Shown in pieces: positions 4,933-37,284 of a DNA stretch of 37,284 nucleotides (position 1 is the stretch's first letter; every line of letters begins with the position of its first letter). Under the pieces are notes generated by a model. The model was not told where the DNA came from and did not search any database. It saw only the letters and a list, made by a program, of their open reading frames with translations. Source of the DNA: Prochlorococcus sp. AG-409-A10 (GTDB taxonomy: Bacteria; Cyanobacteriota; Cyanobacteriia; PCC-6307; Cyanobiaceae); the NCBI GenBank assembly GCA_003216175.1, contig QCJG01000012.1, positions 1-37,284 of the forward strand. Direction: 5' to 3'. The translations under genes were made by a program, and so were the position numbers.

Positions 4933-4940
4933 CGGAATAT

Positions 4941-7521: not shown

Positions 7522-7727
7522 ATGAAAAATAAAATGATTAAATATGTTGATCAAAATCATGACTTTTTATCCCTTCTACCAATAGCCACTAGCTTAAGGA
7601 CTCGTAGATATATAGAGGGGAAACGTAATATAAAGTTGAAAAGATTATAAGAAATTCTCCACTTGGAGGTAATGCAGCTATTAGAAGAATAAAATCAGAG
7701 AAAAGAGACGTGGATAATCTATTTTAA
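7522..7727 (+). pseudogene. Possible frameshifted small gene of unknown function
   Basis: An ATG at 7522 opens a 42-residue frame ending at 7650 (basic; includes LLPIATSLRTRRYIEGKR). A second overlapping frame, 7644-7727, continues with coding-like residues (NSPLGGNAAIRRIKSEKRD). A single shift near 7644-7650 would fuse them into a ~65-residue basic protein. I do not recognise the family. The 5' end of the first frame contains a short repeat also found at 17136. It may equally be two real small peptides. Confidence 0.3.
7526..7562 (+). repeat. Dispersed imperfect repeat, copy 1
   Basis: A ~37-base segment nearly matches 17136-17172: identical 11-base and 14-base blocks are joined by a one-base gap, followed by one substitution and another one-base gap. 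The flanks do not match. In such AT-rich DNA, chance is possible. Confidence 0.4.
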
Positions 7728-7769
7728 CCCGCTAAGCCTCATCCTCTTTGATTTGAATTGAAGAATTAA

Positions 7770-7922
7770 TTACCATGTAATGTAGATCAAATTCCATTTA
7801 CACCTAGACCATTATACGGTGGTCCTATTGATGATGATAATAGAATTATTTTTTGTTTATGGGTCTATGAGTCTTCTAAAAGATTCATAGCAAAAATTGA
7901 AAGAAAGTTTAATAGCAAGTAG
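7770..7922 (+). pseudogene. ORF fragment without a start codon
   Basis: Fifty sense codons, open from just after a TAA at 7767 to a TAG at 7920-7922. The frame contains QIPFTPRPLYGGPIDDDNR and FCLWVYESSKRFIAKIERK. The composition looks protein-like, but there is no ATG, GTG or TTG at its beginning. It could be the 3' remnant of a decayed gene or the end of the frames seen at 7522-7727. The family is not recognised. Confidence 0.3.
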
Positions 7923-7988
7923 TCATATTGAAGTATAAAAGCAATAAACTTTATTCCATTTTGATTTTTACTATTTCTATATGAATAA

Positions 7989-17038: not shown

Positions 17039-17135
17039 GGAAATTTAATAAATAATAAAGAAATAATTTAATTAGGAATAAAGAAACAAGCTAATCAAAT
17101 TAATGCTCTTTCAAGACCAAATATAGTTCAGCAGC

Positions 17136-17172
17136 AAAATAAAATGTTAAATATGTTGATTAAAATACATGA
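17136..17172 (+). repeat. Dispersed imperfect repeat, copy 2
   Basis: Partner of 7526-7562, sharing 11- and 14-base identical blocks with single-base gaps. It lies in the upstream region of glgX. Confidence 0.4.
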
Positions 17173-17285
17173 TAGAATCTGTATTATTCGTTACGTTTGT
17201 TAGTACTTTTAAGTAAAAGATTTCGCAACTTTATCATTATTTTAAATTTTTAATGACATCTTAATAAAACCAATGTAGTTTGTTT

Positions 17286-17349
17286 GAATACTTCAAAAAG
17301 AAACGAATTCTAAAGAAAATCTTGAGTTCGTCGCTATTCGGAAGTATTC
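17286..17349 (+). promoter_or_regulatory. Inverted repeat/structured 5' leader of glgX
   Basis: GAATACTTC (17286-17294) is perfectly complementary to GAAGTATTC (17341-17349). Inside lie further short complementary pairs (CGAA/TTCG and AAGA/TCTT), which could build a long imperfect hairpin ending 24 nt before the glgX ATG. It could be an mRNA leader structure or a split operator. Confidence 0.45.
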
Positions 17350-17373
17350 GTAAATTCCTCTCTTCACCTGAAA

Positions 17374-23342: not shown

Positions 23343-24200
23343 ATGAACAAAAAAATCTTAGTTGTATTATCTGAATGGGGGTATTGGGGGGAAGAACTAA
23401 TTGGCCCTTTAGACGTTTTAACCTCTGCAGGTTATAAGTTAGATTTCATGACACCTTTTGGAAGGAAGCCTCCTGCTTTGCCTCCAAGTATGGATGAAAC
23501 ATATATAGATCCACCATTGGACAAACCAGTAACTAGTTCTCATTTTGCAACTAGAACGACAGCTGTTGATTCATCAGATTTGCTTAGCTCACCTATTAAT
23601 TTAAGTGAGAAATTACCATTAATGCCATATTTTAATGGTGAGAAGTTTGGACATGAACTTGAAAAGTTTTTCAACTTAAGAAGTGAGTTTTGGAAAGACT
23701 TTGTCGACCCTTATGATGCTTTGCTTTTACCTGGCGGTAGTGGTCCAATGGCTGACATGGTAAACAATGAAAGACTTCATAATCTAATTCTTGGGTTTGT
23801 TGATAGAGATAAATTAATAGCTGCTGAATGTTATTGCGTTACATGTTTAGCCTTTGCCAGGGAATGGACAGATAGAAAAAGCATTATATGGGGGAAAAAT
23901 GTTACAGGTCATGCAAGAGAATACGATTATAAAGAGGGTACTGGATTCGCACAAATGTATGGATATGATGGTGAACCAATGAATACTTCTGCTAATTTTG
24001 GTCCTCCTTTTTATCCCTTAGAATATATTCTTAGAGATGCAACAGGTCCAAGTGGAAAATATCATGGTGGAGTGGGAAAAACACTTTCTACAATTCTTGA
24101 TTATCCATTCTTAACAGGAAGATCAACCCAAGACTCTCAGTTGGTTGGAGAACTTATAGTAGAAGTTCTTGAAAAAGGACTGAAGAAATACGGATGGTAA
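23343..24200 (+). CDS. DJ-1/PfpI superfamily protein (class I glutamine amidotransferase-like)
   Basis: 285 residues, longer than the ~190-residue DJ-1 core because of an insert at ~45-120. Conserved features are a beta-strand/Glu start (VVLSEWGYWGEELIGPLDVL), ALLLPGGSGPMAD, and a nucleophile elbow at AECYCVTCLAFA, where C163 aligns with the catalytic Cys, followed by Tyr rather than the usual His. A kinase-like or protease function is unlikely. Hsp31-like glyoxalase III or amidase-type chemistry on a small molecule is possible. It is bounded by a terminator hairpin downstream, so it is probably a separate unit from the ThDP gene. Confidence 0.75.
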   Translation: MNKKILVVLSEWGYWGEELIGPLDVLTSAGYKLDFMTPFGRKPPALPPSMDETYIDPPLDKPVTSSHFATRTTAVDSSDLLSSPINLSEKLPLMPYFNGEKFGHELEKFFNLRSEFWKDFVDPYDALLLPGGSGPMADMVNNERLHNLILGFVDRDKLIAAECYCVTCLAFAREWTDRKSIIWGKNVTGHAREYDYKEGTGFAQMYGYDGEPMNTSANFGPPFYPLEYILRDATGPSGKYHGGVGKTLSTILDYPFLTGRSTQDSQLVGELIVEVLEKGLKKYGW

Positions 24201-24219
24201 AATCATTTACAAATAGATG

Positions 24220-24261
24220 AATATTAGGGCTTATAAATATAGATTTTTAAGCCCTAATATT
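24220..24261. terminator. Terminator-like hairpin after the DJ-1/PfpI gene
   Basis: A perfect 14-bp stem (AATATTAGGGCTTA and its complement) encloses a 14-base loop. It begins 19 bp after the stop and lies 41 bp before the next ATG. The flanks are AT-rich, so it may work in either direction. Confidence 0.75.
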
Positions 24262-24302
24262 ATTAATTAATTGCAATTTGAACAAACTAATTTTATTTAA
24301 TT

Positions 24303-26024
24303 ATGCGTGGACATGAAGCGATCTTAAGGCAATTTTTAGCTAACGATCTTGATCATATGTTTGGGAATCCAGGGACGGTTGAACAAGGCTTTCTTGATGC
24401 TCTCTCTGATGTTCCTGAGATGAAGTACATACTAACTTTGCAGGAATCTATCGCTGTCTTATGTGCTGATGGCTACGCACGCGCAAGATTTAAACCAGCA
24501 CTTGTTCAAATACATAGCTCTCCAGGTCTTGGGAACGCAATTGGAAATTTATACCAAGCAATGAAGGGGCAATCTCCATTGGTAGTTATTGGGGGAGATT
24601 CAGGTATTAAATATCAAGCAATGGATGCTCAGATGGCAGCAGACCTTGTAGCAATGGCAGAGCCTGTTACTAAATGGTCAGCAATGGTTCAGCATCCAAG
24701 CAGTCTCTTAAGAATGGTAAGGAGAGCAATTAAAATAGCTTCAACTCCACCATGTGGCCCAGTATATCTTTGTCTTCCTGAGGACATTTTAGATGAAGAA
24801 ATAACAGAAGAAATTTACCCAGCACACAGGCCAAATTTAGGAACTATTCCAGTTGAGGAAGATTTAGATTCAATCATTAAACTAATAGAAAATTCCAAGA
24901 AACCTCTCATACTTTTAGGAGATGGAGTTGCTTGGACACATGGAACTGAACTTGCTACACAATTAGCTGAGAAGGTTGGGGCTAAAGTTTATTCCGCTGA
25001 TGGAGGAGAAATAAATATTCCTGATGATCACCCCCTAAATTATGGGAGCACTGGTCATATGTTTGGAGAAAGTAGTCTCCCTATTACCAAAGATTGCGAT
25101 TTATGTATTGCGTTAGGGTGTTATTTATTGCCTGAAGTTTTTCCAACACTTGGTGAGATATTTACGCAAAACGCAAAAATTGTTCATATTGACACTAATG
25201 TCGACAACATAGCTAAAAATCATAGAGTTGATTTATCAATAGTTGCGGCACCTTCAACAGTTCTGAAGGCATTATTACCAAAAGTAGAAGATTTACCAAG
25301 TAGCTGGCATTCAGAAGCTCAAGAAAGAAGAAAACTTTATGAAAAGAGATCGCCTCTCTATAACAATACAATTGATGAAAACTTCGATGTAATTCCTAAA
25401 CATAATGATGATGAATATGATGGTAAAAAGGTTTCAATGAAATCTGGATATTTTATCAAAACACTTTCAGAATTATTGCCAGATAATAGTGTGATTTTTG
25501 ATGAAGCTCTTACGAATTCTCCACCAATAAATAAATATATTCCTGGCAAAAAACCTGGAGATAGATTACTTACAAGAGGTGGCTCATTAGGAACAGGTTT
25601 CCCTGGAGCAATTGGAGCAAAACTTGCACACCCAGAAAAGGTTGTTATTGGTTTTTCAGGAGATGGAGGAAGTATGTATACTATTCAAAGTTTGTGGACT
25701 GCAGCAAGACATGGTATAGCAGCCAAATTCATAGTATGTCAAAATCGTTCATATCATTTACTTCAATTAAATATAAGCAAGTTTTGGGAAGAAAGAAATA
25801 TTAAAGATAGAGATTTCCCTTTGGCTTTTGACTTATCTAATCCAGAAATATATTTTGATGATATTGCAAGAAGCTTCAGTGTCCCTGGGGAAAGAGTTAT
25901 TAAACCAAGCCAAGTAAAACCTGCTATAGAAAAAATGTTAAACCATAATGGACCATATCTTATTAATTTAGTACTGGATGGAGATACTCATCCTGAGTTA
26001 GTTGGTGTTCATTGTGGACAATAG
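24303..26024 (+). CDS. Thiamine-diphosphate-dependent decarboxylase, benzoylformate-decarboxylase-like
   Basis: 573 residues with the three-domain pyruvate-oxidase/decarboxylase layout. The N-terminal domain shows HMFGNPGTVEQGF, LTLQESIAVLCADGYA with the ThDP-activating E48, and IHSSPGLGNAIGN with H71/S72, like benzoylformate decarboxylase. The C-terminal domain has GDGGSMYTIQSLW at 453 and the closing QN at 480-481 of the ThDP/Mg2+ motif. It should convert a 2-oxo acid to an aldehyde plus CO2. Similar sequences also include acetolactate-synthase-like and oxalyl-CoA types, so the exact substrate is unknown. It heads a gene row with two NTF2-like proteins and a VOC protein (gaps of 48, 48 and 2 bp). 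Confidence 0.88.
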   Translation: MRGHEAILRQFLANDLDHMFGNPGTVEQGFLDALSDVPEMKYILTLQESIAVLCADGYARARFKPALVQIHSSPGLGNAIGNLYQAMKGQSPLVVIGGDSGIKYQAMDAQMAADLVAMAEPVTKWSAMVQHPSSLLRMVRRAIKIASTPPCGPVYLCLPEDILDEEITEEIYPAHRPNLGTIPVEEDLDSIIKLIENSKKPLILLGDGVAWTHGTELATQLAEKVGAKVYSADGGEINIPDDHPLNYGSTGHMFGESSLPITKDCDLCIALGCYLLPEVFPTLGEIFTQNAKIVHIDTNVDNIAKNHRVDLSIVAAPSTVLKALLPKVEDLPSSWHSEAQERRKLYEKRSPLYNNTIDENFDVIPKHNDDEYDGKKVSMKSGYFIKTLSELLPDNSVIFDEALTNSPPINKYIPGKKPGDRLLTRGGSLGTGFPGAIGAKLAHPEKVVIGFSGDGGSMYTIQSLWTAARHGIAAKFIVCQNRSYHLLQLNISKFWEERNIKDRDFPLAFDLSNPEIYFDDIARSFSVPGERVIKPSQVKPAIEKMLNHNGPYLINLVLDGDTHPELVGVHCGQ

Positions 26025-26072
26025 CTAACCTTCCTAAATTTTTTCACCTACACTTTTACTTATCCTTTTATT

Positions 26073-26498
26073 ATGTTTACACATCCAGAAATTTGGAGTT
26101 TTGCATCCAATTGGTATCGCTTATTAGATATTCATGCACCTATTGATTCCTACAAGAACTTATTAACTGATGATGTCAAATTGATCTTCCCTGAAGCAAC
26201 TTTAAAAGGTTTTAGTGGATATTCTGAATGGTATAAAAACGTGACTAATTTATTCTTTGATGAGCAACACACACTTAAAACAGCTGATATTGTTAAACAA
26301 GAAGACAACGAATGTGAATTACATGTTGTTGTTAACTGGCATGCAAGTGTTTGGACTCCTCCAGCGTCACATAGTGCACGATTAAAAATGGATGCAGACC
26401 AAACATGGAAAGTTAAAAAACTATCTAATGGTGATCTAGCTGTATCTGAATATATAGTTAATGAACTTATATATGAGGATGGATCATGTAAGCTTTGA
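26073..26498 (+). CDS. NTF2-like/SnoaL-type protein
   Basis: 141 residues with the cone-shaped NTF2 layout: a helical start (PEIWSFASNWYRLLDIHA), then FPEATLKGFSGYSEWYKNVTNLF, and a strand-rich end (CELHVVVNWHASVWTP, YIVNELIYED). Such proteins act as small-molecule isomerases, cyclases or binding subunits, but no catalytic residue can be assigned safely. It lies 48 bp downstream of the ThDP gene, in the same direction. Confidence 0.7.
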   Translation: MFTHPEIWSFASNWYRLLDIHAPIDSYKNLLTDDVKLIFPEATLKGFSGYSEWYKNVTNLFFDEQHTLKTADIVKQEDNECELHVVVNWHASVWTPPASHSARLKMDADQTWKVKKLSNGDLAVSEYIVNELIYEDGSCKL

Positions 26499-26546
26499 GT
26501 ACTTATTTTTTATTATTACTACTTTTTATTTATCAATTTAATTATC

Positions 26547-26942
26547 ATGAAAAACGTTCCAAACTCCAAATTAGGAAATCTTTATAGAGAACACATAAAC
26601 CTTATATTAAAAAAAGATATTAAGGGTTTATTAAATCAGTATTCAAAAGATTCTGTTTTGATTTCTAGTTTTGAGAAAACCCCAAAATATTTCAGGGGAC
26701 ATAAAGAATTGGAAGAGCATTTTAAAGGGATATTAGGAATTAATGGGTTAGAGACAGATATTGCATTTTGGGGAGAAACAGAAAATCCAACAACATTAAT
26801 GATTGTTGAAGCAATAACAATGCAAACTGATCAGGGTGAAGCAAAAATGAGATTTGCCGATAGTTGGGTCCTAGATGATGAGGGTAAAATAAAAATACAT
26901 TTTGCTGGAATGACCCAATACCCAGATGGACAGGTAGCTTAA
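26547..26942 (+). CDS. Second NTF2-like/SnoaL-type protein
   Basis: 131 residues, same fold type as the preceding gene but divergent in sequence: LYREHINLILKKDIKGLLNQYSKDSVLISSF, then KYFRGHKELEEHFKGIL, and strands in MIVEAITMQTDQGEAKMRFADSWVL. The motif SVLISSF...GHKELEEHF is a typical NTF2-like signature (an RGxxxL helix after the first strands). The stop is 2 bp before the VOC start, so the genes are likely coupled. Function unknown. Confidence 0.7.
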   Translation: MKNVPNSKLGNLYREHINLILKKDIKGLLNQYSKDSVLISSFEKTPKYFRGHKELEEHFKGILGINGLETDIAFWGETENPTTLMIVEAITMQTDQGEAKMRFADSWVLDDEGKIKIHFAGMTQYPDGQVA

Positions 26943-26944
26943 TC

Positions 26945-27355
26945 ATGTTACAAATAGTCTCTCAACTCGCAATTACTTGCAAGGACCAGTCAATTACAGA
27001 AGATTGGTACGTAAAAAACTTTGGTTTTAAAAGAGCCAGAGTCGCGAAGCTTCCTGATGGGAAAGAAATAATATTTATAAAAATGGCAGATTCCTCTTTT
27101 TATTTAGAACTTTTTGAAGCGGATAAAGAAGCTCCAATTAAAGAAGCAACTAATGATGGTTATACCTTTCCAGGCTTCAGGCACTTAGCCTTTAAAGTTG
27201 AAAATGTTGATAACAAATTAAAAGAAATAGACAACTTGAATGTAACTTTAGGACCAATGAATTTTGATGATTTCATTCCAGGCTGGAGAACAGCATGGAT
27301 AAAGGATCCAGATGGAAGGATTATCGAAATCAGTCAAGGATTTGTTGATGAATAA
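26945..27355 (+). CDS. VOC/glyoxalase-fold protein
   Basis: 136 residues with two betaalphabetabetabeta modules. The candidate metal-binding set is Q7, E55, H80 and E128, matching the glyoxalase I pattern (Gln/His, Glu, His, Glu). WYVKNFGFKRARV, FRHLAFKVENVDNKLKEI and DPDGRIIEISQG are recognisable VOC features. It could act on a 2-oxo aldehyde or related product; the upstream decarboxylase would make an aldehyde. Last gene of the row, followed by a terminator. Confidence 0.8.
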   Translation: MLQIVSQLAITCKDQSITEDWYVKNFGFKRARVAKLPDGKEIIFIKMADSSFYLELFEADKEAPIKEATNDGYTFPGFRHLAFKVENVDNKLKEIDNLNVTLGPMNFDDFIPGWRTAWIKDPDGRIIEISQGFVDE

Positions 27356-27378
27356 ATGACATTTTCCTAATAAAATAT

Positions 27379-27411
27379 CTCAAAGAGAATAGATCATCTA
27401 CTCTCTTTGAG
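27379..27411 (+). terminator. Terminator after the VOC gene
   Basis: A 15-bp stem with one A-C mismatch (27379-27393 with 27397-27411) has a 3-base loop. It lies 23 bp after the stop and is followed within a few bases by a five-T run. Confidence 0.8.
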
Positions 27412-27493
27412 CAAAAATTTTTAGTTAATTTATTTTAATTAAAAGACGCAAGAGTTATTATCTCTTAAAATAAAAAAATATAAATATGTAGCT

Positions 27494-28129
27494 TTGAACA
27501 ACTCAATTATTTATCGTTCCTTTATTGAACTTATAGGCACTGCTATTCTTTCTGTAGCAATAATTACAGGCAAGAACTCATCACTAAGCATAGTTGAATC
27601 TTCTATTTTTATAGGCCTTACATTATGTTTTCTCATACATCTTTTTGGACGAATTAGTGGAGCTCATTTTAACCCTCTAGTTACTTTGATGTTTGTGCAA
27701 TTTCATAATGGGAATCATTGGTATAAAAAGAAATCGTTATTAGTTAACACAATACTATATATATTATTTCAACTAATTGGAGCTTCAATAGCCTTTTCAT
27801 TTTATCAAATTAGGGAAATAGATAATGCTTTAACAAGTGTTAATTTATTTAATGAAGGGTTGCTTACATTTATTTTTTTATCACTTATAAAAATTTGGAG
27901 TGAAGAAGGAAAAATCTGTCCTGAATCAAAACCATTATCTGGAATTGTTGTGGGTTTGGGTCTTATTCCAATATTAATTTTTGGTGGTTTAAACGCCTCA
28001 GGTTTACTAAATCCAGCCATCGCAATAGGAATATTTATTTCAGGAGCAAGTGGACTAAAGTCAATTTTATTTATAGAAATAATAATTCTAATGATGCTTT
28101 ATTTAACATCAAAAATAAAATACCAATAG
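27494..28129 (+). CDS. MIP-family channel (aquaporin/glycerol facilitator-like), atypical
   Basis: 211 residues from a TTG start, short of the usual 230-280 but with six hydrophobic segments and both half-repeats. The first pore motif is SGAHFNPLVTL (N60-P61-L62). The second is GLLNPAIAIG (N173-P174-A175). In the second, the arginine that normally follows NPA (the ar/R selectivity filter) is isoleucine (I176), which is unusual and suggests altered selectivity. No ATG lies near the N-terminus in this frame; the upstream ATG at 27486 reads into a stop. A membrane channel for water or small neutral solutes is expected. It is a single gene with a hairpin after it. Confidence 0.82.
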   Translation: MNNSIIYRSFIELIGTAILSVAIITGKNSSLSIVESSIFIGLTLCFLIHLFGRISGAHFNPLVTLMFVQFHNGNHWYKKKSLLVNTILYILFQLIGASIAFSFYQIREIDNALTSVNLFNEGLLTFIFLSLIKIWSEEGKICPESKPLSGIVVGLGLIPILIFGGLNASGLLNPAIAIGIFISGASGLKSILFIEIIILMMLYLTSKIKYQ

Positions 28130-28173
28130 ATAATTTAAACATAGTATGTTTATTTAGAATTAAAAGCAAAAAT

Positions 28174-28206
28174 AAAAACCCTAAAAAATATAAGTTAAGG
28201 TTTTTT
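28174..28206 (+). terminator. Terminator-like hairpin after the MIP channel gene
   Basis: AAAAACCCTAA pairs with TTAAGGTTTTT with one mismatch, across a ~10-base loop, and ends in a six-T run. It lies 45 bp past the stop. Confidence 0.55.
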
Positions 28207-28326
28207 CTAAAGAATATTTTGTTTGCTAGTATTTAATACATATTGTCTAAAAAACAGGAGAATAGTTATTCTTCGAGGTTCTTTGTTGCTACAGGTTCGG
28301 TTCAATTAGCAAAAAAGCAGTCCCAA

Positions 28327-28366
28327 TGAACTATGATAATATAAAAGTATTTTGAACTATGACAAT
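28327..28366 (+). repeat. Duplicated 14-base motif around a start codon
   Basis: TGAACTATGATAAT at 28327-28340 recurs at 28353-28366 with one base changed (C for T at position 11). Each copy contains an ATG. Only the second opens a long frame (28359); the first stops after three codons. Confidence 0.6.
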
Positions 28367-28502
28367 TTACAAATTAAAAGCAAAATTGGATCTAAATGTA
28401 GATGATATAGAATACGTACAAGATACAATCACTGAAGCAATAAATTCAATTAGTGCATGCGAGGATGTGATTTCTTTAGATCTAGAAATGAGCGAGAATT
28501 AG
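28359..28502 (+). CDS. Small acidic protein, unknown
   Basis: 47 residues from ATG: MTIYKLKAKLDLNVDDIEY, then helical EYVQDTITEAINSISACED and an acidic end. The composition is protein-like: hydrophobic residues with i/i+3/4 spacing and no odd codons. I do not recognise a family. It sits alone, upstream of the Mrp operon. A small genuine protein is more likely than not. Confidence 0.5.
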   Translation: MTIYKLKAKLDLNVDDIEYVQDTITEAINSISACEDVISLDLEMSEN

Positions 28503-28558
28503 ATTTGTAAATCTATTTGTTTCATTAGATATTCAATATGTTTATTCAGTTTTGTTTA

Positions 28559-28592
28559 TTTAGATAATTGCCTAATTTAATAATTATCTAAA
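28559..28592. promoter_or_regulatory. Inverted repeat upstream of the Mrp operon
   Basis: A perfect 11-bp stem (TTTAGATAATT with its complement) encloses a 12-base loop. It lies 57 bp after the small ORF stop and 152 bp before the Mrp start. It could be an AT-rich terminator without a T tract, or an operator. Confidence 0.5.
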
Positions 28593-28744
28593 TCATAATA
28601 TACTAATAAAATATCGTACAAGAAAATAATTGCAATACATAAAACCTCTATTCTTAATATTTTCTTCAGGCTCCTGAAATAAATATAAATTTTAAGCTTA
28701 GTATATCTATTTTTATATAAATTTATAATATTAGTATTAGCCAC

Positions 28745-29098
28745 ATGCATTTTGGGCAAGAACTAACAAGTCTTATATTGTTTTTTCCTCTTGTTGTATT
28801 AATAATAATTGGATGTTATGGATTAATTAATTCGAAGAATATTTTTAATGCTCTTTTCTCTCTAGATGTAATTGATACAGCTACTATTTCTCTTTTTGTT
28901 TTGATTGCTGCTTCTTCTGGACTGCAGACACCCATAACTGGTTTGCGGCGATATGCTAATTACGCAGATCCTTACCCTCAGGCTATTATTTTGACTGCAA
29001 TAGTTATTGGATTTGCAACTCAAGCTTTACTATCGGCAATTGCCTTAAGATTAAGTAGAAGTAATCCTCTACTTCGTTTTAAGGATTTGGAGGATTAA
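28745..29098 (+). CDS. mrpC: Mrp Na+/H+ antiporter subunit C (NuoK/MnhC-like)
   Basis: 117 residues with three membrane helices. The conserved MnhC/NuoK pattern is visible: IGCYGLINSKNIFNALFSLDVI and ADPYPQAIILTAIVIGFATQALLSAIAL near the C-terminus. It forms part of the inner-membrane Mrp antiporter complex, which exchanges Na+ for H+ and supports pH and salt homeostasis. First gene of a closely spaced operon: the next start follows 1 bp after the stop. Confidence 0.92.
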   Translation: MHFGQELTSLILFFPLVVLIIIGCYGLINSKNIFNALFSLDVIDTATISLFVLIAASSGLQTPITGLRRYANYADPYPQAIILTAIVIGFATQALLSAIALRLSRSNPLLRFKDLED

Positions 29099-29099
29099 T

Positions 29100-30599
29100 A
29101 TGAATGTAAATATTATATTAACTTGTTTGATATTCTTCCCTATAATTATAGGTTTTTTGGGTTGTCTATTCCCAAATAAATTCTTTTTTGTTGGAGTTTT
29201 TTCATTATTAGTTAGTAGCGTACTAAGTTTTTTAGGTCTCTTAAATGGGTTTAATGAATCATTTGTACTAGTAAATCAAGGTGGCATATTACTATCCTTT
29301 GATAAGTTTAGCTTGCCTTTAATATTTGGGACATCAATTGTTTTACTGATTACTTTCTCTCTCAGAAAAAAGTATTTTTCTCATTATTTTTATCAAATAT
29401 CGCTAGTTTTATTTTCAGCTTTATCAATTTGCTTCATAGCAAAAGACTTAATAAGTATATATATAGCTCTTGAGTTGACTGGTTTTTGTGCTTTTCTATT
29501 GATAGCAGACAAGAATACTAATAAATCATTATTCCAGTCATTCCAATATTTAATAGGTGGCGGATTGGCAATGCTTATTTATTTGATTGGAGTGATTCAG
29601 GCATTCACATATACCGGTTCTTTTGCACTTGACGACCTTTCCTTGGCTCCTAGTACAGCACTTTGTCTTATTGTTGCAGGTTTATTAACTAAATCGGGGA
29701 TATTTCTGTGCGGTATTTGGGTACCTAATATTTATACAAATGCTTCTATACAATCTTCATCAATACTTTCAGGTTGTGTTACTTGTGCAGGAATAGCTCC
29801 TATTTCAAGAATGAGTCAAATACTTACTCCAATTAGTAATTCTATGATTGTTATTGGCGTACTAAGTGCAATATTGGCAGCAATATTGGCAATATTTGAA
29901 ACTGATGATGGTAGGACATTAGGATGGAGTTCAGTATCTCAATTAGGCATATCAATACTTTCACCTTCTTATGCGTGCCTTTATGTTATGCAGCACGGTA
30001 TTTGCAAATGTCTTTTATTTAATACATTAAATGAGAATTCAGATTCACAAATAAAAAATGGATTAATAAAAAACAATGATTCGATATCATATCATCAGGA
30101 TTTAATCGGACTAATTACATTTATTATTGCAGGTCTTTCTATTGCTGGCTTCCCATTTATTGCAGGATTTACAACTAAAACTCTATTAAAATACGATTTA
30201 CCTTCATCTGCTCAACTCATAGTTTCAACATCTGCTTTACTTACCTCAGCCATTTACGTGAAATTAATAATCTCAAAATTAAAAAGATTTAGATTTGCTT
30301 ATTATAAAAAAACACCATCTATCAATATAAAATCAATATTAAACCAAAATAATTTAATTTTGATTTTTTGTATTTTATTTCTAATTTCTACCTCATTTCT
30401 ACGTTTTGATTTGTTTAAAACAATTTATATTACCAACAGCCTTTCTGCATTATTTATTGGTGGAATATTATATCTATGTGTTATGGGTATAGAAAAAAAT
30501 ATTGAATCATCTAATATAAGAAAGACAATTGATATAATTGGCGCACCTTTTATTGTTGCAGCAATTCTGCTGGCAAATTTGACTTATTTTAAATTATGA
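29100..30599 (+). CDS. mrpD: Mrp antiporter subunit D (NuoM/N-like)
   Basis: 499 residues, about 13-14 membrane helices, typical length. It carries the NuoL/M/N proton-channel core: ISIYIALELTGFCAFLLIAD (the conserved Glu), YLIGGGLAMLIYLIG and LLTKSGIFLCGIWVPNIYT (the conserved Lys). This is the only antiporter-type large subunit in the operon; other cyanobacterial clusters usually have two. The stop overlaps the next start by ATGA. Confidence 0.93.
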   Translation: MNVNIILTCLIFFPIIIGFLGCLFPNKFFFVGVFSLLVSSVLSFLGLLNGFNESFVLVNQGGILLSFDKFSLPLIFGTSIVLLITFSLRKKYFSHYFYQISLVLFSALSICFIAKDLISIYIALELTGFCAFLLIADKNTNKSLFQSFQYLIGGGLAMLIYLIGVIQAFTYTGSFALDDLSLAPSTALCLIVAGLLTKSGIFLCGIWVPNIYTNASIQSSSILSGCVTCAGIAPISRMSQILTPISNSMIVIGVLSAILAAILAIFETDDGRTLGWSSVSQLGISILSPSYACLYVMQHGICKCLLFNTLNENSDSQIKNGLIKNNDSISYHQDLIGLITFIIAGLSIAGFPFIAGFTTKTLLKYDLPSSAQLIVSTSALLTSAIYVKLIISKLKRFRFAYYKKTPSINIKSILNQNNLILIFCILFLISTSFLRFDLFKTIYITNSLSALFIGGILYLCVMGIEKNIESSNIRKTIDIIGAPFIVAAILLANLTYFKL

Positions 30600-31009
30600 C
30601 TATTACACGTTATATAAAATTTTTAATAACAATTATTTTTAGAACATTTGTATGGACGCTTATCACCTCAAATTTCAGTTACTTTAATATTTTATTTGGT
30701 TTAGTTGTCTCCTCAATAATACCTGTAGGAAAGTTTGAAAAAATCGATTTATTTTTAGTAATTAATCAAATTTTTGTCACTATCATGATTATACCCCAGT
30801 CATTATTGGAGACCTTAAATTTAATTTTAATAAGAAAGCCTTGTGACTCATTTATTCAGCAAAAATCTGTTGTCTCATCGAATGGATCTCAATTCATTAA
30901 TTTTATTGATTTGCTAAGAATTACAATTACACCATTGAGTCTTGTAACTAGAAGAATAGACAATAAATCATGGAGAGTACACATCATAAAAGAAACCAAA
31001 AATAATTAA
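30596..31009 (+). CDS. mrpE: Mrp antiporter subunit E (MnhE)
   Basis: 137 residues. Hydrophobic N-terminal helices (about 5-70) precede a C-terminal soluble part with FINFIDLLRITITPLSLVTRR and WRVHII, the MnhE pattern (TxxPG/TxxLS region). It overlaps mrpD by 4 bp (ATGA), pointing to translational coupling, and is separated from mrpF by 2 bp. Confidence 0.87.
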   Translation: MTITRYIKFLITIIFRTFVWTLITSNFSYFNILFGLVVSSIIPVGKFEKIDLFLVINQIFVTIMIIPQSLLETLNLILIRKPCDSFIQQKSVVSSNGSQFINFIDLLRITITPLSLVTRRIDNKSWRVHIIKETKNN

Positions 31010-31011
31010 TT

Positions 31012-31323
31012 ATGTATAACAACGTATTCACATTTTTAGTAACAGACTTTAATAGTAGTCAGATAAATAATATAGACTTAGTAATCATTTACACGATGTT
31101 AATTTGTTGTTTAATGCCTATGATTTCAATAGCACGTTCTAATGAAATACTAAGTCAAATAGCATCATCCTCCAGTTTTGGATCTAAAATAGCAATGTTA
31201 ATTATATCATATGCTGTTTTCATTGGTGACTGGTCTATTGGCTCGATAGGTACAACTATTTTAATCGTAGGAGATGCTGGTTTGATTGCATTAACTCTTT
31301 TATATGGTTCTAATAGAAACTAA
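31012..31323 (+). CDS. mrpF: Mrp antiporter subunit F (MnhF)
   Basis: 103 residues with three helices and the MnhF signature around PMISIARSNEILSQI and SYAVFIGDWSIGSIGTTILIVGDAG. A small membrane subunit of the Mrp complex. Fits its place between E and G; 2 bp to the next start. Confidence 0.85.
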   Translation: MYNNVFTFLVTDFNSSQINNIDLVIIYTMLICCLMPMISIARSNEILSQIASSSSFGSKIAMLIISYAVFIGDWSIGSIGTTILIVGDAGLIALTLLYGSNRN

Positions 31324-31325
31324 CT

Positions 31326-31595
31326 ATGCAACTTTTATTTTCTTATTTATTAGCTTTTATTGGATTGTTTCTATGGATTTGGGGTACGACTCCTTTGATA
31401 ACTCATAAAGGTCATCTTTTATATAAATTACATACTCTGACTGTTTCAGATACGGTAGGTTCGATTATTATTCTTTTATCCTTTATAGTTAGAGCCCCTA
31501 ATAAATGGCCAATATTTTTAATTGCAATATTTTCTCTAGCAATTTGGAATACTGTATTTGGTTATTTATTGGGCTCATTATCAGATAAAAAATGA
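31326..31595 (+). CDS. mrpG: Mrp antiporter subunit G (MnhG)
   Basis: 89 residues, three helices. KLHTLTVSDTVGSIIILLSFIV matches the MnhG motif (RLHaxxkxxTlG). Overlaps the next gene by ATGA. Confidence 0.88.
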   Translation: MQLLFSYLLAFIGLFLWIWGTTPLITHKGHLLYKLHTLTVSDTVGSIIILLSFIVRAPNKWPIFLIAIFSLAIWNTVFGYLLGSLSDKK

Positions 31596-32116
31596 CTAAT
31601 ATTCAAATCGCTACTTTGCTACCTTTTGAGTTTCTACTACCAATAATTGGTATATTATTAATCAGAAATCAATCTCCAATACAAGGCTTAATTTATAGAT
31701 CCTTTTTGGGCTCAACCGCTGCACTTATTTACTCACTTCTTGGAGCACCTGATGTCGCACTTACAGAAGTACTTGTAGGAACATTACTATCAACACTTCT
31801 CTATATAATAGCTATAAAAGGTTGTTACTCTGTAATAATTTTAGTTGAAAATGACTCAGTGCTTAATAATTCTTTGGAAAATGATTTGCATCTTTTATTT
31901 TCTGAGTTGAACTTTAATATTGTTTTCAAGCAAGTTAAAGTTATAAAAAAAGTCGGTTCTGGTAATGTTGATTGGGATAACACCAACGTACTTAATGGTT
32001 CTCCTCATGCAGCCTTGATAGGTAATGATTTATTAGTAGAGTCTCCTATACTAAGAGAAGAATTACTTTCAACTAATACAATTAAAAATTTATCTATAAA
32101 TATCATAAACACATGA
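31592..32116 (+). CDS. Mrp antiporter MbhD/DUF4040-like subunit (short MrpA-type)
   Basis: 174 residues. Three helices with SPIQGLIYRSFLGSTAALIYSLLGAPDVALTEVLVGTLLSTLL match the DUF4040/MbhD region, which in group 1 Mrp systems is the C-terminal part of the large MrpA. Here it stands alone, without the N-terminal NuoL-like portion. The soluble C-terminal ~70 residues are of unknown role. Overlaps both neighbours by 4 bp. Confidence 0.82.
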   Translation: MTNIQIATLLPFEFLLPIIGILLIRNQSPIQGLIYRSFLGSTAALIYSLLGAPDVALTEVLVGTLLSTLLYIIAIKGCYSVIILVENDSVLNNSLENDLHLLFSELNFNIVFKQVKVIKKVGSGNVDWDNTNVLNGSPHAALIGNDLLVESPILREELLSTNTIKNLSINIINT

Positions 32117-32814
32117 CTAACACAATAACTAAAGCTAATAGATATGAATTAGTTAAATCTCTCTTATATTTGTCAGCAATATCTTCTGTAATGATTATTC
32201 TTCTATTTTCTAATAATGATATAGAAGTCAGAAATACAGAAAATATCGTAAATTATCTATCTGAAATAACCTTAATACCAAATACAGTTACCTCTGTAAT
32301 ACTTGGCACTAGGCTCTTCGATACAATTGGTGAGGTAACTGTTTTTACAATTGCTGGATTAGGAGTAAAAATATTATTAGCGCATGAGAAATCAGAAAAA
32401 TCATTAACTGCTATTAAGGACCCAACCTTAATTTCTCTATTAGATTTTGCAGCATTATTATCTTCATTTTTGTGCTTCGAATTAGCAATTAGAGGTCATT
32501 TATCTCCCGGTGGTGGTTTTGCATCTGGGGTTGCAGGTGCTACATCTATTACTTTATTAATGATCACTGGTCGTCTAAAAAGATTGGAAAGAATCTATTC
32601 CAATTATCAAGTTATAAGTTTAGAAAAGATAGCAGTAATTGCTTTTATCCTATTATCAATAATCAGCTTTGCTTCTTATTCACCGTTATTGTCATTCATT
32701 TCTCTTCCACAGAACTTAATAATCCCTATTCTTAATATTATTTGTGCATTTAAAGTAACTGTTGGTACTTGGTCAATTATCAGACTGTTTATTATTAAAC
32801 GTGGTATTTTATAA
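32113..32814 (+). CDS. mrpB: MbhE-MnhB fused Mrp subunit (MrpB)
   Basis: 233 residues. An N-terminal MbhE-like segment with TRLFDTIGEVTVFTIAGLGVKIL precedes a MnhB domain with AIRGHLSPGGGFASGVAGATSITLLM, the invariant GH-x-PGGGF motif. It completes the Mrp complex in the inner membrane. The fusion of the former MrpA C-terminal piece to MrpB is a known variant. 2 bp separate it from the K+ channel gene. Confidence 0.88.
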   Translation: MTNTITKANRYELVKSLLYLSAISSVMIILLFSNNDIEVRNTENIVNYLSEITLIPNTVTSVILGTRLFDTIGEVTVFTIAGLGVKILLAHEKSEKSLTAIKDPTLISLLDFAALLSSFLCFELAIRGHLSPGGGFASGVAGATSITLLMITGRLKRLERIYSNYQVISLEKIAVIAFILLSIISFASYSPLLSFISLPQNLIIPILNIICAFKVTVGTWSIIRLFIIKRGIL

Positions 32815-32816
32815 TT

Positions 32817-33566
32817 ATGTATAAATATAGTGACCAATGGTATTTTGGTGATTATTTAGAGTCATTGCCAGGTAAAAATTACAATTATATAGTTTATTTC
32901 GTAACTATTCTATTATTCATTGAGATTGCGGTAAGTACTGAATCAACTTTAATTAACAGTCAAACTACTCTGCTATTAGATTTTTTTCTTAATTTAATTG
33001 AGTTGTTTTTTATATCTGATTATATTGGTAAGATATTAAATACATGGTCTAAAAAGGAATACAAGGTTAATTTATTAATTTTTATATTTTTTAAACCACG
33101 ATCTTTCTTTGACTTTTCATCTCTTATTTTATTGACTACAGGCATTTTCAGCACAGAATCACCTGTAGTAATTACCGCATATATTCTAAAAACTATATTC
33201 AATATCTATGACTCTAAACTTAGAGTAGCAATGAAAAGACTAGCATTTATATTTTTTTCTAATCCAACTAAAACCTTTTTCCCTATTGGAATACTTTCGA
33301 TACTAACATACCTATTTGCATCAACAATGTATGTTATTGAAAAAAATAATGATCCTGAACATTTTGGTTCCATAATAAGATCTCTATGGTTTTCAGTAGT
33401 GAGTGTTACAACTATTGGTTACGGAGATGTAACTCCTACAAGTGTTTTAGGCAAATTAATATCAACATTATTTGGTATCTTAGGTATCTTGTGTATTGCT
33501 TTACTTACTGCAAATATTGTCGATATGGATAATAAGTATAATCAAAAGATACAAGAGCAAGAGTAA
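32817..33566 (+). CDS. Voltage-gated-like K+ channel
   Basis: 249 residues. Four weaker helices (~25-130) resemble a voltage-sensor-like bundle with a poorly charged S4. They precede a pore module: a pore helix SLWFSVVSVTT and the selectivity filter TIGYGD (199-204), followed by an inner helix LGKLISTLFGILGILCIALLTANIV. No cytoplasmic RCK/TrkA domain is present; the C-tail is short and charged. It is the last gene of the Mrp operon, 2 bp after mrpB. K+ conductance may balance charge during Na+/H+ exchange. Confidence 0.9.
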   Translation: MYKYSDQWYFGDYLESLPGKNYNYIVYFVTILLFIEIAVSTESTLINSQTTLLLDFFLNLIELFFISDYIGKILNTWSKKEYKVNLLIFIFFKPRSFFDFSSLILLTTGIFSTESPVVITAYILKTIFNIYDSKLRVAMKRLAFIFFSNPTKTFFPIGILSILTYLFASTMYVIEKNNDPEHFGSIIRSLWFSVVSVTTIGYGDVTPTSVLGKLISTLFGILGILCIALLTANIVDMDNKYNQKIQEQE

Positions 33567-33652
33567 TATTTTCAAAAATCTTACATTGTATTTTTAATTA
33601 CATTGTAATTTGTAATATAAGGATTATGCTGGTTTTCTATAATTGAGTTTAA

Positions 33653-34366
33653 ATGAAATCTATAAACCATATACTTGACGCAGGTACACCATTTGAAATA
33701 GTCAAATATTATTTGAGCTCCTATTCTAAATTAATTGATATTTATAAATTTGGTTGGGGTAGCTCATTAATTGATCCTGAATTTCAGATGAAAAAAGACT
33801 TTTGCGATACTAATGATATTATTCCTGTCCTCGGTGGAACGATGTTTGAATATTATTATTATAAAGATAATCTCTTAACTTTTAAAGAATATCTTAAATC
33901 ACATAATCTTAAATGGGTTGAATTAAGTAGAGGTACTATTGATATACCTGATCAAGAATATTATGAGCTGGTAACAGAATATTCTGAAGATTTTAATGTT
34001 ATGAGTGAAATAGGAAGAAAGCATGATAATAACTTACCATTATTAACTTCAAAGGATTGGCTTGAACAATCATTATGCTCTTTAAAGGCTGGAGCTGAAA
34101 TTATAATATTAGAATCCAGAGAGTCCGGCAAGGCAGGTATAGCCAATGAAGATGGTACTTTGAAAAAAGATATTTTAAATGAGGTTTTATCAGAGATAGA
34201 TTTAAATATGATACTTTTCGAAGCGCCAACAAAAAAGATACAATCTTATTTAATAAATAACTATGGTTCTGAAGTTAATTTAGGTAATATTAGTCTACAA
34301 AATATACTGCCTGTTCATGCATTGCGTAAAAAACTTAGATCTGACACATTAATAGAAAATGAATAA
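33653..34366 (+). CDS. comA: Phosphosulfolactate synthase family protein (ComA/Hsa32-like)
   Basis: 237 residues, close to the family's usual 240-260. TIM-barrel landmarks of the family are present: ILDAGTPFEIVKYY, IYKFGWGSSLI (K32), PVLGGTMFEYYY, WVELSRGTIDIPD, FNVMSEIGRK, LKAGAEIIILESRESGKAG, ILFEAPTKKIQSYL, VNLGNISLQ, and LRKKLRSDT at the end. In methanogens and some bacteria this enzyme adds sulfite to phosphoenolpyruvate to give (2R)-phospho-3-sulfolactate. Plant Hsa32 heat-stress proteins are homologous, so catalytic function is not certain. It heads a four-gene unit (8-bp overlap with the VOC gene) containing a solute-binding protein and an SDF transporter. No ComB phosphatase is in view. 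Confidence 0.85.
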   Translation: MKSINHILDAGTPFEIVKYYLSSYSKLIDIYKFGWGSSLIDPEFQMKKDFCDTNDIIPVLGGTMFEYYYYKDNLLTFKEYLKSHNLKWVELSRGTIDIPDQEYYELVTEYSEDFNVMSEIGRKHDNNLPLLTSKDWLEQSLCSLKAGAEIIILESRESGKAGIANEDGTLKKDILNEVLSEIDLNMILFEAPTKKIQSYLINNYGSEVNLGNISLQNILPVHALRKKLRSDTLIENE

Positions 34367-34790
34367 AACGAATTTACAACCAACGATAGATCATGGTTAC
34401 TTAGTTCATATCGCGATAAAAAGTTATAATTTATCGGATTCCAAAGAATTTTATTCTAATTGTATTGGAGCTACTGTCTTTAGAGAATTAAATGACAGAG
34501 TAACCTTTGGGATATTAAATATTCAACTTGTGACACATTTGACAAAACATCATGATTTAACAAAAACTCCTAGTTTTTATCCAAATCATTTTGGACTTAC
34601 ATTTTTAAGTCAAGATCGAATTGAGGCTATGTATGATAAATCACTTGCTTATAATATTAAAAGTATATATAGTAAATTAGATTATAGATTCAAAGGAAGG
34701 CAAGATGAACACATGACTTTTTCTTTAATAGATCCATCTCACAACTTTATTGAATTTAAATATTATACAAAGTTAAAATTTCCTTTTTAA
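34359..34790 (+). CDS. VOC-superfamily protein
   Basis: 143 residues. Two betaalphabetabetabeta modules with a candidate 2-His-1-Glu type set: H17 (VHIAI), H60 (LVTHL) or H77 (NHFGLTF), and E132 (FIEFKYY). KEFYSNCIGATVFRELNDR is typical of the first module. It may be a dioxygenase or isomerase. It overlaps comA by 8 bp and precedes the solute-binding protein by 7 bp, so all are likely co-translated. Confidence 0.78.
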   Translation: MNKTNLQPTIDHGYLVHIAIKSYNLSDSKEFYSNCIGATVFRELNDRVTFGILNIQLVTHLTKHHDLTKTPSFYPNHFGLTFLSQDRIEAMYDKSLAYNIKSIYSKLDYRFKGRQDEHMTFSLIDPSHNFIEFKYYTKLKFPF

Positions 34791-34797
34791 TTGCATT

Positions 34798-35646
34798 ATG
34801 AATCTCCTCTATTTTTTAAGAAACTGTATTCTTATATTTACTTTGTTCTTACTGATTCAGATTAATCAGAAGGTTTATGCTGCTGAAAATATTTATATAG
34901 ATAAAATTATTCAAAGAGGTTATCTAAATGTTGGATTACCACCTTACACAACACCTCCATTTTATTATTTAGATCCGAAAGATAATAAATTAAAAGGATA
35001 CGATGTTGATATTATTGAAGGCTTTGCAAATGAAATTGGAGTTAATGTTGTATTTGATAGAGATTCAACAAGCTTTAATAATTTAGTAAAGCGATCTGGT
35101 GCTGGAGATTTTGATATGGCGATCGGTAAATTAGGAACAACTTTTAAAAGAATGTCTGATGCCCACCCTCATGAATATATGAATTTTAGGCATGCTTTGT
35201 TATCTAATAGAAAGTTTGTCAATTCATTAGGTGTTGCTCCTGATAATCCAAAATATGGTAATAAACTATTGAATTCTGAGATGACAATAGGTTTTATTGA
35301 TAGATCAGCTTATGACACTTATGCTAATTCTCTTTTTGTCAATGCAAAAAAGGTTGGTTTTAAAAATTGGACTGAGTGCAAAAATGCTTTATTAGAAGGA
35401 AAAGTAGATGCTATTTACAGGGATGCTACAGAGATAAAAAAAATTGTTTATCAAAAGCCTAATTTATCAATCGAATATGTCCCGATATTATTTGATGATA
35501 TAATTGATCAAAAATCCATATTTCTATCAACTGAAGCGAATACATATCTATCAGATATTCTTGATTATTATTTAAAAAGAAAAGAAATAAAAACAGACAG
35601 TGAAATCATGAAAGATTATTCATCTTTTTATGAGCCAATTAACTAA
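34798..35646 (+). CDS. Periplasmic solute-binding protein (SBP_bac_3/PBPb type)
   Basis: 282 residues. A Sec signal peptide (~1-28, ending KVYAA-E) precedes a PBP fold of the amino-acid-binding type: RGYLNVGLPPYTTPPFYYLD, then LKGYDVDIIEGFANEIGV, FDMAIGKLGTTFKRM, VDAIYRDATEI and a C-terminal lobe. The ligand cannot be read off. Its partner is an SDF symporter gene starting inside it (17-bp overlap), not an ABC permease/ATPase pair, which is unusual for this fold. Confidence 0.87.
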   Translation: MNLLYFLRNCILIFTLFLLIQINQKVYAAENIYIDKIIQRGYLNVGLPPYTTPPFYYLDPKDNKLKGYDVDIIEGFANEIGVNVVFDRDSTSFNNLVKRSGAGDFDMAIGKLGTTFKRMSDAHPHEYMNFRHALLSNRKFVNSLGVAPDNPKYGNKLLNSEMTIGFIDRSAYDTYANSLFVNAKKVGFKNWTECKNALLEGKVDAIYRDATEIKKIVYQKPNLSIEYVPILFDDIIDQKSIFLSTEANTYLSDILDYYLKRKEIKTDSEIMKDYSSFYEPIN

Positions 35647-36949
35647 ACTAAAAATGACAAACTCCTTTACAAATTTCCGCAGTGTCTTAACTACACTCAG
35701 AAACCCAAAGTTTTTCTTACTTATTATTTTTCCATTGGGGTTAATTATAGGTACCTTCTTACCAGATTTATCAAGTTCTTTGAATGATTTGGGATATACA
35801 TTAATTCAATTAATATCTTATCCTGCTATACCTTTAGTACTAACAGCTGTAATTATTTCTGTATATTCTATCCTTTCTTTGGATAAATCAAATAAAAATG
35901 CTTCTTTTGCAAAAAAGCTTGTATTCTCCTTAATTATCTTTACTTTTGTATCAAGTTTTCTTGCTCTAGCCCTTGCACTTTATCAGAAGCCTGGAATTCT
36001 TTCCCCTGATGGTAAGGTTTCAATTGGTAAGTTTATGCTAGATATTACAGATATTAATTTAACTGTTTTCACTTCAAATATTGAAGATCAAGTAGTTACT
36101 AATGCATCATGGCTTCAATCAATTATTCCCTCTAATATATTATCTGACGCTGCCAACAACAATACTCTTAAAGTAATATCAGGCTCATTAATTGCTGGCT
36201 ATGGTTTATCTATTCTTCCTCAAGATGTTTCAAAGCCATTAGTCACTCTTCTCAGAAGTATAAACTCTCTTTCTGTAAAAGTTCTAGATGAATTACTACT
36301 TCTTTCTCCAATCCTCCTAATATGTTTAATAGCTGGTGCAATTAGCAGCATTAATACAGAGATAATAATTGCTTTATTAAATGTAACCATTTGTATTCTT
36401 GTTTCAGCAGTTGCTTGTTTAGGACTATCAAGATTAATAATTAAGAGATATACTTCAAAGGAAGAAAAAACTTTACTTGAGACTAATCCAGCTGATTCAG
36501 TTTTTATTGTTGGTTTATCTACTGGTTCAAGTATGGCATGTTACCCTACAATAATTAATACATTAAAACTTATTGGCAGAGAACCTAATCAAGTTGAGGC
36601 ATCTACTTCTCTAAGCTTATTAATATCAAGACTGGGTAATGTTGTTTACAATGTTATTGCAATTGTTTTTGCATTAAATCTTTATGAAGTTAGACTTTCT
36701 CCAATTATTTTATTGCAAGTAATAATTCTGGGAGTAGTTAGTGGTATTTCATCAGCTGGATTAAATGGTGTAGCAGTTGTACCTACTATCGCTTTGGCTC
36801 TTGTATTCTTTCAAGTTCCAGCACCTCCTATACTATTACTTTTGTTAGCTATAGATCCTATAATGACATTACCAAGAGCTGCAATATCGGGAGTATTGGC
36901 CTTATGTATAAGTGTTATTTCAAGTGATAAAAGCATAGTAAAGGTGTGA
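35630..36949 (+). CDS. SDF/DAACS-family symporter (glutamate/dicarboxylate type), divergent binding site
   Basis: 439 residues with eight membrane helices and two re-entrant hairpins, typical of GltPh-like transporters. HP1 shows GLSTGSSMACYPTI. Late in the protein, TM8 reads IDPIMTLPRAAISGVLA. By alignment with GltPh TM8 (D390, D394, R397, T398, N401, D405), the residues are D409, T413, R416, A417, S420 and A424. The amino-group ligand Asp394 and the Na+ ligands Asn401/Asp405 are therefore replaced, while the Arg for a carboxylate is kept. That resembles C4-dicarboxylate (DctA-like) more than amino-acid transporters. The first ATG overlaps the previous gene; an ATG at 35654 would leave a 7-bp gap and may be the real start. 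Confidence 0.86.
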   Translation: MSQLTKLKMTNSFTNFRSVLTTLRNPKFFLLIIFPLGLIIGTFLPDLSSSLNDLGYTLIQLISYPAIPLVLTAVIISVYSILSLDKSNKNASFAKKLVFSLIIFTFVSSFLALALALYQKPGILSPDGKVSIGKFMLDITDINLTVFTSNIEDQVVTNASWLQSIIPSNILSDAANNNTLKVISGSLIAGYGLSILPQDVSKPLVTLLRSINSLSVKVLDELLLLSPILLICLIAGAISSINTEIIIALLNVTICILVSAVACLGLSRLIIKRYTSKEEKTLLETNPADSVFIVGLSTGSSMACYPTIINTLKLIGREPNQVEASTSLSLLISRLGNVVYNVIAIVFALNLYEVRLSPIILLQVIILGVVSGISSAGLNGVAVVPTIALALVFFQVPAPPILLLLLAIDPIMTLPRAAISGVLALCISVISSDKSIVKV

Positions 36950-37284
36950 TACTTTTTTTATTATCGTAATTTTTTATAAGTTTATTTATATATACATAAA
37001 CTATCAGAATAAATTCTCCATTTATTAATTTACGAATAAAATATCCTCATATAATAATGATTTTATAAATTCAAATATGAAAAAAAAATTTTTAAAATAT
37101 TAAAAGTTATATTTAATTAATCACGTTATTAACTCTTAGTTGAATCTTATTTTTAGTTGATGATTAAAAAATTGTTTTTTAACAATATAAGATTAGAAAA
37201 TAATTTACTATAAATGAATTTTTTAAGCATGGATGATGTCAAAAGAAAATCTTTAAGCTAAAAAATAAATACAGATTTTTATGT
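36950..37284. other. AT-rich 3' flank, no gene seen
   Basis: 335 bp to the window edge. Only very short frames occur (for example ATG at 37214, 15 codons). There is a 6-bp AT hairpin with a T4 loop at 37171-37186 and two TTAGTTGA copies near 37138 and 37155. A downstream gene or promoter may begin beyond the edge. Confidence 0.6.

Follow-up and report, generated by a model that had tools for sequence, protein, structure and literature searches.

What does a homologue of ComA, the phosphosulfolactate synthase, do in a marine picocyanobacterium? One is encoded by Prochlorococcus sp. AG-409-A10 on contig QCJG01000012.1 (GenBank assembly GCA_003216175.1), of which we analysed positions 1 to 37,284 of the forward strand; this whole stretch of 37,284 nucleotides is hereafter called the window. 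The ComA gene (33653-34366) is followed on the + strand by genes for a VOC-fold protein (34359-34790), a family-3 solute-binding protein (SBP; 34798-35646) and an SDF-fold carrier (35630-36949). An earlier interpretation made without database searches, here the sequence-only reading, saw in these four genes a candidate module for making and transporting a sulfonate.

The answer that we tentatively favour is that the four genes form the tail of a twelve-gene, same-strand operon (28745-36949) for the transport of cations and an acidic solute, within which ComA would make sulfolactate as an end product that serves as a nitrogen-free dianion with K+. ComA would join sulfite to phosphoenolpyruvate (PEP), and an unlinked ComB would remove the phosphate to yield (R)-sulfolactate. 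The SBP-SDF pair would carry an acidic solute resembling aspartate or malate, probably without Na+ coupling in the fashion of GltPh, whilst an Mrp-type antiporter would, together with a K+ channel, balance Na+, H+ and K+ against the anion traffic. Sulfolactate would thus accompany K+, either beside the imported solute or in its place, and it is possible that sulfolactate is itself moved by the carrier. Both the reaction and the class of solute are predicted here from the families to which the proteins belong.

Operon structure and inheritance

The four genes are joined by an 8-bp overlap, a 7-bp gap and a 17-bp overlap, exactly as the sequence-only reading had it, and each product scores above the gathering threshold of the Pfam family named for it: PF02679 for ComA (201.6 bits, cut-off 25.2), Glyoxalase PF00903 for the VOC protein (26.7, cut-off 20.6), SBP_bac_3 PF00497 for the SBP (48, cut-off 26.4) and SDF PF00375 for the carrier (135.6, cut-off 27.9). 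That reading overlooked the start of the run, eight genes upstream at 28745. These eight genes (28745-33566) encode Mrp-type subunits followed by a K+ channel; the gap between the Mrp genes and the channel gene is 2 bp, that between the channel gene and ComA 86 bp, and at the remaining joints the genes overlap or are a few bases apart. Scanning 28100-37284 returned 58 promoter-like sites (shuffled mean 62.5) and 0 terminator-like sites (2.3 in shuffled sequence).

Conservation of the neighbourhood, one of the checks proposed with the sequence-only reading, was borne out. A second Prochlorococcus genome (G038, locus L028) has all twelve genes in identical order at 74-93% identity, with ComA, VOC, SBP and SDF at 84-91%. 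The arrangement recurs at 45-63% identity to the window in the group of genomes that we label g5, eleven of which have the order Mrp, channel, ComA, (VOC), SBP, SDF, the VOC gene being present in only 2/11. Overall, ComA was found in 2/41 genomes of the genus, 14/400 of the family and 4/386 sampled from the phylum, the last four all belonging to the window's family. In 13 of the 14 family genomes with ComA it lies behind this operon's K+ channel, and in 12 of them ComA, or ComA with VOC, is directly upstream of the SBP-SDF pair. The thirteenth, G304 (L026, one of the eleven g5 loci), has a contig that ends inside ComA, and its partial SDF gene is on a separate contig (L055). The four-gene arrangement is not due to chance. 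The K+ channel was found in 17/400 and the SDF carrier in 20/400 family genomes (E up to 1e-20). MrpB occurs in the very 2/41 genus genomes that have ComA, and therefore the whole operon, beyond ComA, is an accessory trait in the genus.

ComA is under purifying selection. For the two Prochlorococcus copies the ratio of nonsynonymous to synonymous substitution (dN/dS) is 0.11, in keeping with 0.07-0.12 for five other operon genes; four g5 pairs gave 0.05-0.16, one of them near saturation (dS 2.7), and a fifth pair yielded no value. In a ComA tree of 20 rows (L026 and L049 excluded) the operon ComAs form one clade (100/99), and a comparison by eye with a tree of the operon (18 rows; L026 and L055 excluded) shows agreement in branching where both are resolved. 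Placing ComA on the operon tree requires 4 changes, at least 3 of them forced by starred branches. Locus L053 (G324), which has no ComA, is a clear case of loss, because on the operon tree it sits inside a ComA clade (100/99). Early presence of ComA at this operon position, followed by several losses, is the simplest reading, although gains are also allowed. No relatives were found among viral contigs in a check for phage carriage, and a plasmid search with two SDF proteins and the VOC protein gave no match. ComA homologues are present in 19 plasmid records, all at less than 60% identity.

ComA and its pathway

The window ComA is identical to ComA of Methanocaldococcus jannaschii (PDB 1qwg) at 80/230 aligned residues and to a Bacillus subtilis protein, presumably YitD (PDB 1u83), at 79/227, about 35% in each case. 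All three belong to PF02679. The sequence-only reading had turned on the active-site residues, and these are intact when compared with the two proteins of known structure: we chose 29 positions, mainly by the conservation line, and 27 of them are the same in all three proteins, including K32, E66, E90, E119, K123, E154, R156, E157 and R229. K123 is the equivalent of M. jannaschii Lys137, which we take to be the general acid. Moreover, a 15-row alignment that includes proteins from coenzyme M clusters has 32 invariant columns. The residues thus predict a synthase that is apparently intact. A Salinibacter ruber plasmid (L049, 4854-5699) encodes a ComA-family protein without the RESG stretch, perhaps with a different activity. 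On a Legionella lytica plasmid (L048, 2805-6433) phosphosulfolactate synthase forms, by annotation, the last part of a far longer protein, and a 2-phosphosulfolactate phosphatase gene overlaps it, after the synthase.

The ComB phosphatase had been reported as missing from the window, with advice to look elsewhere, and a homologue (PF04029) indeed lies at G000:C13:29236-29910 in the same genome. ComB homologues occur in 34/41 genus genomes, including 17/17 nearly complete ones, and in 12/14 ComA genomes (8/8 nearly complete); the two genomes without a match, G299 and G319, are incomplete. The ComC family (Ldh_2, PF02615), the one dehydrogenase family searched, was found in 0/14 ComA genomes and in 4/14 control genomes. 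Since this family is missing from the ComA genomes, sulfolactate, if made, would more likely be an end product than a step toward coenzyme M.

Several observations weigh against the favoured explanation. With the archaeal ComA equivalog model TIGR03849 the window ComA scores 172.6 bits, under the cut-off of 280; of the 10 proteins scored, only that of Xanthobacter (L046, 325.4) passed, and L044 (266.9), L045 (203.6) and L047 (204.9) failed too. The stem of the operon ComA clade is long (1.43 changes per column), and the members of the clade do not have the N-terminal PRxxG(L/I/V)T stretch seen in six other aligned members. Because of these three features, the reaction of the operon ComA could be shifted. 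Furthermore, 16 of the 17 nearly complete genus genomes have the ComB homologue but no ComA, and this homologue must therefore serve another job too. In 5 family genomes the operon, complete or partial, is found with no ComA, which counts against a dedicated transporter. The Mrp genes accompany channel, SBP and SDF in G324, G328 and G380, and SBP and SDF but no channel in G332; G073 (L052) has the channel, an SBP split into two open reading frames (ORFs) and SDF, and directly upstream there is no Mrp gene. No ComA remnants were detected in these five loci, the best match (E 0.041) being outside the operon gap. On the operon tree, the presence of ComA is no more clustered than chance (102/500 shuffles as low). 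Finally, the activities of all operon proteins are predictions, and the role as counter-anion to K+ is read from gene company alone.

The transporter pair

The carrier matches SDF in Pfam, has the SDF fold and keeps Arg416, the equivalent of GltPh Arg397 in transmembrane helix 8 (TM8). Its substrate site had been described as dicarboxylate-like, which holds in so far as this arginine makes it acid-like. However, Ser333, Leu335 and Ser420 occupy the positions of GltPh N310, D312 and N401, side chains that we take to be Na+ ligands, and an arginine (Arg334) stands in the TM7 motif; the D394 equivalent is replaced as well, and D405 is outside the aligned stretch. Because the N310, D312 and N401 equivalents are lost and the TM7 motif holds an arginine, the carrier, judged by its residues, is not an ordinary Na+:dicarboxylate symporter. 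Arg334 is present in carriers both with and without ComA. An SBP gene is paired with 20 of the 21 carriers of this type that have upstream sequence, and this pairing makes the protein a putative SBP-dependent secondary transporter. The SBP itself, a family-3 member, keeps Lys111, Arg118, Arg208 and Asp209 in 20/20 aligned relatives. Of these residues Arg118 and Asp209 align with the amino-acid-binding AncQR, where they presumably mark the alpha-carboxylate and alpha-amino positions.

Pairs of the same type also occur away from the Prochlorococcus and g5 loci, in L071 (5119-7562), L072 (6167-8730), whose SBP carries a peptidoglycan-binding domain, and L056 (1120-3513), where the pair is beside a PF00999 exchanger. 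L071 and L072 come from two distant cyanobacteria, and in both the pair adjoins a gene for an aspartate-type racemase, on the same strand with a 1-bp overlap in L071 and convergent in L072. In G087 a related pair adjoins a PF00999 cation/H+ exchanger, whose best NCBIfam matches are K+/H+ antiporters, below cut-off; the carrier's tie to cation/proton exchange thus recurs with an unrelated exchanger family.

The best NCBIfam match of both racemases is the 'cysteate racemase' CuyB (181.0 bits in L071 and 171.6 in L072, cut-off 190), which would have offered a second link to sulfonates. We dropped this link because the CuyB model does not discriminate: the controls all pass, namely five plasmid racemases (236.5-353.8 bits), two of which have an annotated aspartase and an SDF-type symporter as neighbours, and a 221-residue fragment of 1jfl, an aspartate racemase of known structure (249 bits). 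The amino acid racemase model scores 1jfl higher (380.1) than CuyB does, whereas the L071, L072 and five plasmid proteins score higher with CuyB. We count the racemase as pointing to an acidic amino acid, but it may yet act on cysteate.

The TM8 arginine, Arg118 and Asp209 of the SBP and the neighbouring racemase would point to an acidic amino acid or dicarboxylate, and Lys111 and Arg208 of the SBP together with Arg334 of the carrier to a stronger dianion. Sulfolactate resembles malate and cysteate resembles aspartate, and the combined evidence fails to separate these four.

These results bear on what the operon is for. In a sulfonate module of the kind proposed by the sequence-only reading, sulfolactate made by ComA and ComB would be the substrate of the pair, taken up or released, and strains without ComA would keep the carrier to import it from others. 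The position of ComA, or ComA with VOC, directly upstream of the pair in 12/14 ComA genomes agrees with this, and the two arginines of the SDF site, with Lys111, Arg118 and Arg208 in the SBP, would fit a dianion. However, the carrier is found in 5 genomes without ComA, with L053 nested in a ComA clade; the SBP keeps the aspartate that aligns with an amino-acid-binding position; related pairs adjoin aspartate-type racemases; and Arg334 is independent of ComA and therefore no mark of a sulfonate. Nor is a dedicated pair supported, since the pair is part of a larger Mrp/K+-channel operon, persists where ComA is missing and has racemase neighbours in L071 and L072. We regard this module as doubtful, and a role of the carrier as a dedicated transporter of sulfolactate is unlikely.

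It is also unlikely that the pair imports aspartate or glutamate on Mrp-type ion gradients with ComA as an unrelated passenger that, for example, traps excess sulfite. The racemases beside related pairs and the amino-acid-binding positions of the SBP agree with such uptake, as does the company of racemase, aspartase and SDF-type symporter on annotated Phaeobacter and Priestia plasmids, and ComA has been lost from the operon at least once. A passenger, however, would not be expected to have a fixed place in the operon, a matching tree and a low dN/dS, and its rarity elsewhere in the phylum would likewise be unexpected.

Rather improbable, in our estimate, is a make-or-take anion system in which a Na+-uncoupled, binding-protein-linked SDF carrier, Mrp-type antiporter and K+ channel would maintain an acidic dianion against K+; it would be made as sulfolactate from sulfite and PEP in some lineages and imported by relatives that have lost ComA. 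If true, the self-made dianion would be free of both nitrogen and phosphorus. Least credible is a stress-protein reading of the ComA homologue, as Hsa32-type or non-enzymatic in some other way: weighed for Hsa32 through likeness to the M. jannaschii and B. subtilis enzymes alone, this could claim the low identity to known enzymes and the long stem, but the 27 identical positions, the 32 invariant columns and the loss of RESG in the genuinely divergent Salinibacter protein make it very unlikely.

The VOC protein

We surveyed 30 chosen genomes, 14 with ComA and 16 without, for this type of VOC protein. It occurs in 5/30, each time directly behind ComA (E up to 1e-5), and in 0/16 of the ComA-less genomes. 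Nine ComA genomes are without it, among which the G304 sequence ends before the place behind ComA. Other proteins of the VOC superfamily do occur, such as that at 26945-27355 in the window. Residues invariant in the five sequences include His17, His77, His118 and Glu132, which would suit a metal site. We infer that the protein acts on the product of ComA or its precursor; it is dispensable.

In G190 (g31) ComA and VOC are found in a wholly different place, overlapping by 4 bp beside nonribosomal peptide synthetase (NRPS)-type genes and a PEP-mutase-family gene. This locus (L027, G190:C7:34000-53900; 1-10068 and 15694-17442) includes ComA-VOC, an AMP-binding/peptidyl carrier protein, NRPS-like ORFs identified by eye and the PEP-mutase-family gene, with a thiamine pyrophosphate (TPP) enzyme nearby. 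It is a candidate natural-product cluster with a predicted sulfonate or phosphonate unit.

The antiporter, the channel and the surrounding genes

The upstream part of the operon, all on the + strand, opens with Mrp subunit C (28745-29098; NF005620, 134.8 bits, cut-off 91; PF00420) and subunit D (29100-30599; PF00361, 108.1 bits), the sole large antiporter-like subunit of the run. An E-like subunit (30596-31009) is named partly from position, its PF01899 score of 17.5 bits being under the cut-off of 27, and an F-like subunit (31012-31323; no Pfam match) from position alone; an orthologous ORF has the same position in L016-L026, L028, L050, L051, L053 and L054. Subunit G (31326-31595; PF03334, 42.9 bits, cut-off 23.4), a MbhD-like subunit corresponding to the C-terminal part of MrpA (31592-32116; PF13244, 54.4 bits, cut-off 27.2) and subunit B (32113-32814; NF009218, 219.5 bits, cut-off 184; PF04039) follow. 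The K+ channel (32817-33566; PF07885, 62.6 bits) has a TIGYGD filter, read in the sequence. The definition of an Mrp antiporter calls for seven subunits and, among them, the large N-terminal part of MrpA. Here C, D, G, MbhD and B were recognised, and 28745-32814 contains no second large antiporter-like ORF. Because such an ORF is missing, E is weak and F is placed by position alone, the predicted antiporter is Mrp-type, without the complete canonical set.

The GC content of the window is about 31% (29% in the operon), compared with 37% in the one comparison stretch used (14 kb, G000:C13:22000-36173), and the contig may be a low-GC island. In L018 the operon is flanked by the genes for DNA polymerase III alpha and DnaG, and ruvA lies upstream of it; L016 has ruvA on the downstream side of its operon. 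Directly after SDF in g5 loci that lack VOC there is a short ORF, lipoprotein-like by eye (L018 12559-13014, and similar in L019, L021 and L022); that of L018 has no Pfam match. Upstream of the operon, 23343-28129 encodes a DJ-1/PfpI-like protein, a TPP enzyme, two weakly SnoaL-like proteins, the second VOC protein and a MIP channel; G038 has these genes in identical order, and the g5 stretches compared contain no counterparts. We considered the TPP enzyme (24303-26024) as a sulfopyruvate decarboxylase and rejected it, there being no ComD/ComE model among the best 25 of 51 NCBIfam matches; it was also set aside as a member of the system, having no close homologue in those g5 stretches.

Relation to known systems

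The enzyme, carrier fold, antiporter and channel are of kinds already known; their combination and the SBP-linked type of SDF carrier are a new variation on them. Compared with the M. jannaschii and B. subtilis proteins, the window ComA differs in its Mrp/K+-channel/SBP/SDF operon and in the lack of a ComC-family gene in the ComA genomes. The coenzyme M clusters of Xanthobacter autotrophicus Py2, Nocardioides JS614 and Mycolicibacterium chubuense NBB4 likewise have an annotated PF02679-type synthase, but in those clusters annotated lyases and a pyridoxal phosphate-type enzyme come after it, none of which is in the window operon. From GltPh, EAAT3 and DctA the carrier is set apart by SRLGN in place of NMDGT, the four replaced residues and the SBP gene directly upstream. 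TRAP and TTT systems are SBP-dependent secondary transporters, and the likeness is that a secondary carrier is encoded with a solute-binding protein; here, however, an SDF-fold carrier goes with a family-3 SBP. The closest known system for the VOC protein is 3rri, a VOC protein of Alicyclobacillus acidocaldarius.

The pairing of SBP family 3 with SDF may not be wholly unrecorded, because the domains of one 100-sequence network, according to a figure legend in PMC2950845, include both SBP family 3 and sodium:dicarboxylate symporter. Among the literature matches listed, a coverage that mostly leaves out subscription papers, no paper dealt with ComA or this operon in marine picocyanobacteria, and the portions seen of PMC10119275 and PMC2874817 contain nothing on this operon.

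Concluding remarks

The operon reveals a divergent group of SDF carriers encoded with a solute-binding protein, as well as a VOC type tied to ComA, and the functions of both are testable. C3 sulfonates are a class of compounds used by marine heterotrophs, and if ComA works here, some ocean picocyanobacteria have a direct, nitrogen-free route to one. The operon is present in a few marine Prochlorococcus and Synechococcus-like cyanobacteria, and to these ComA could give a nitrogen-free acid anion.

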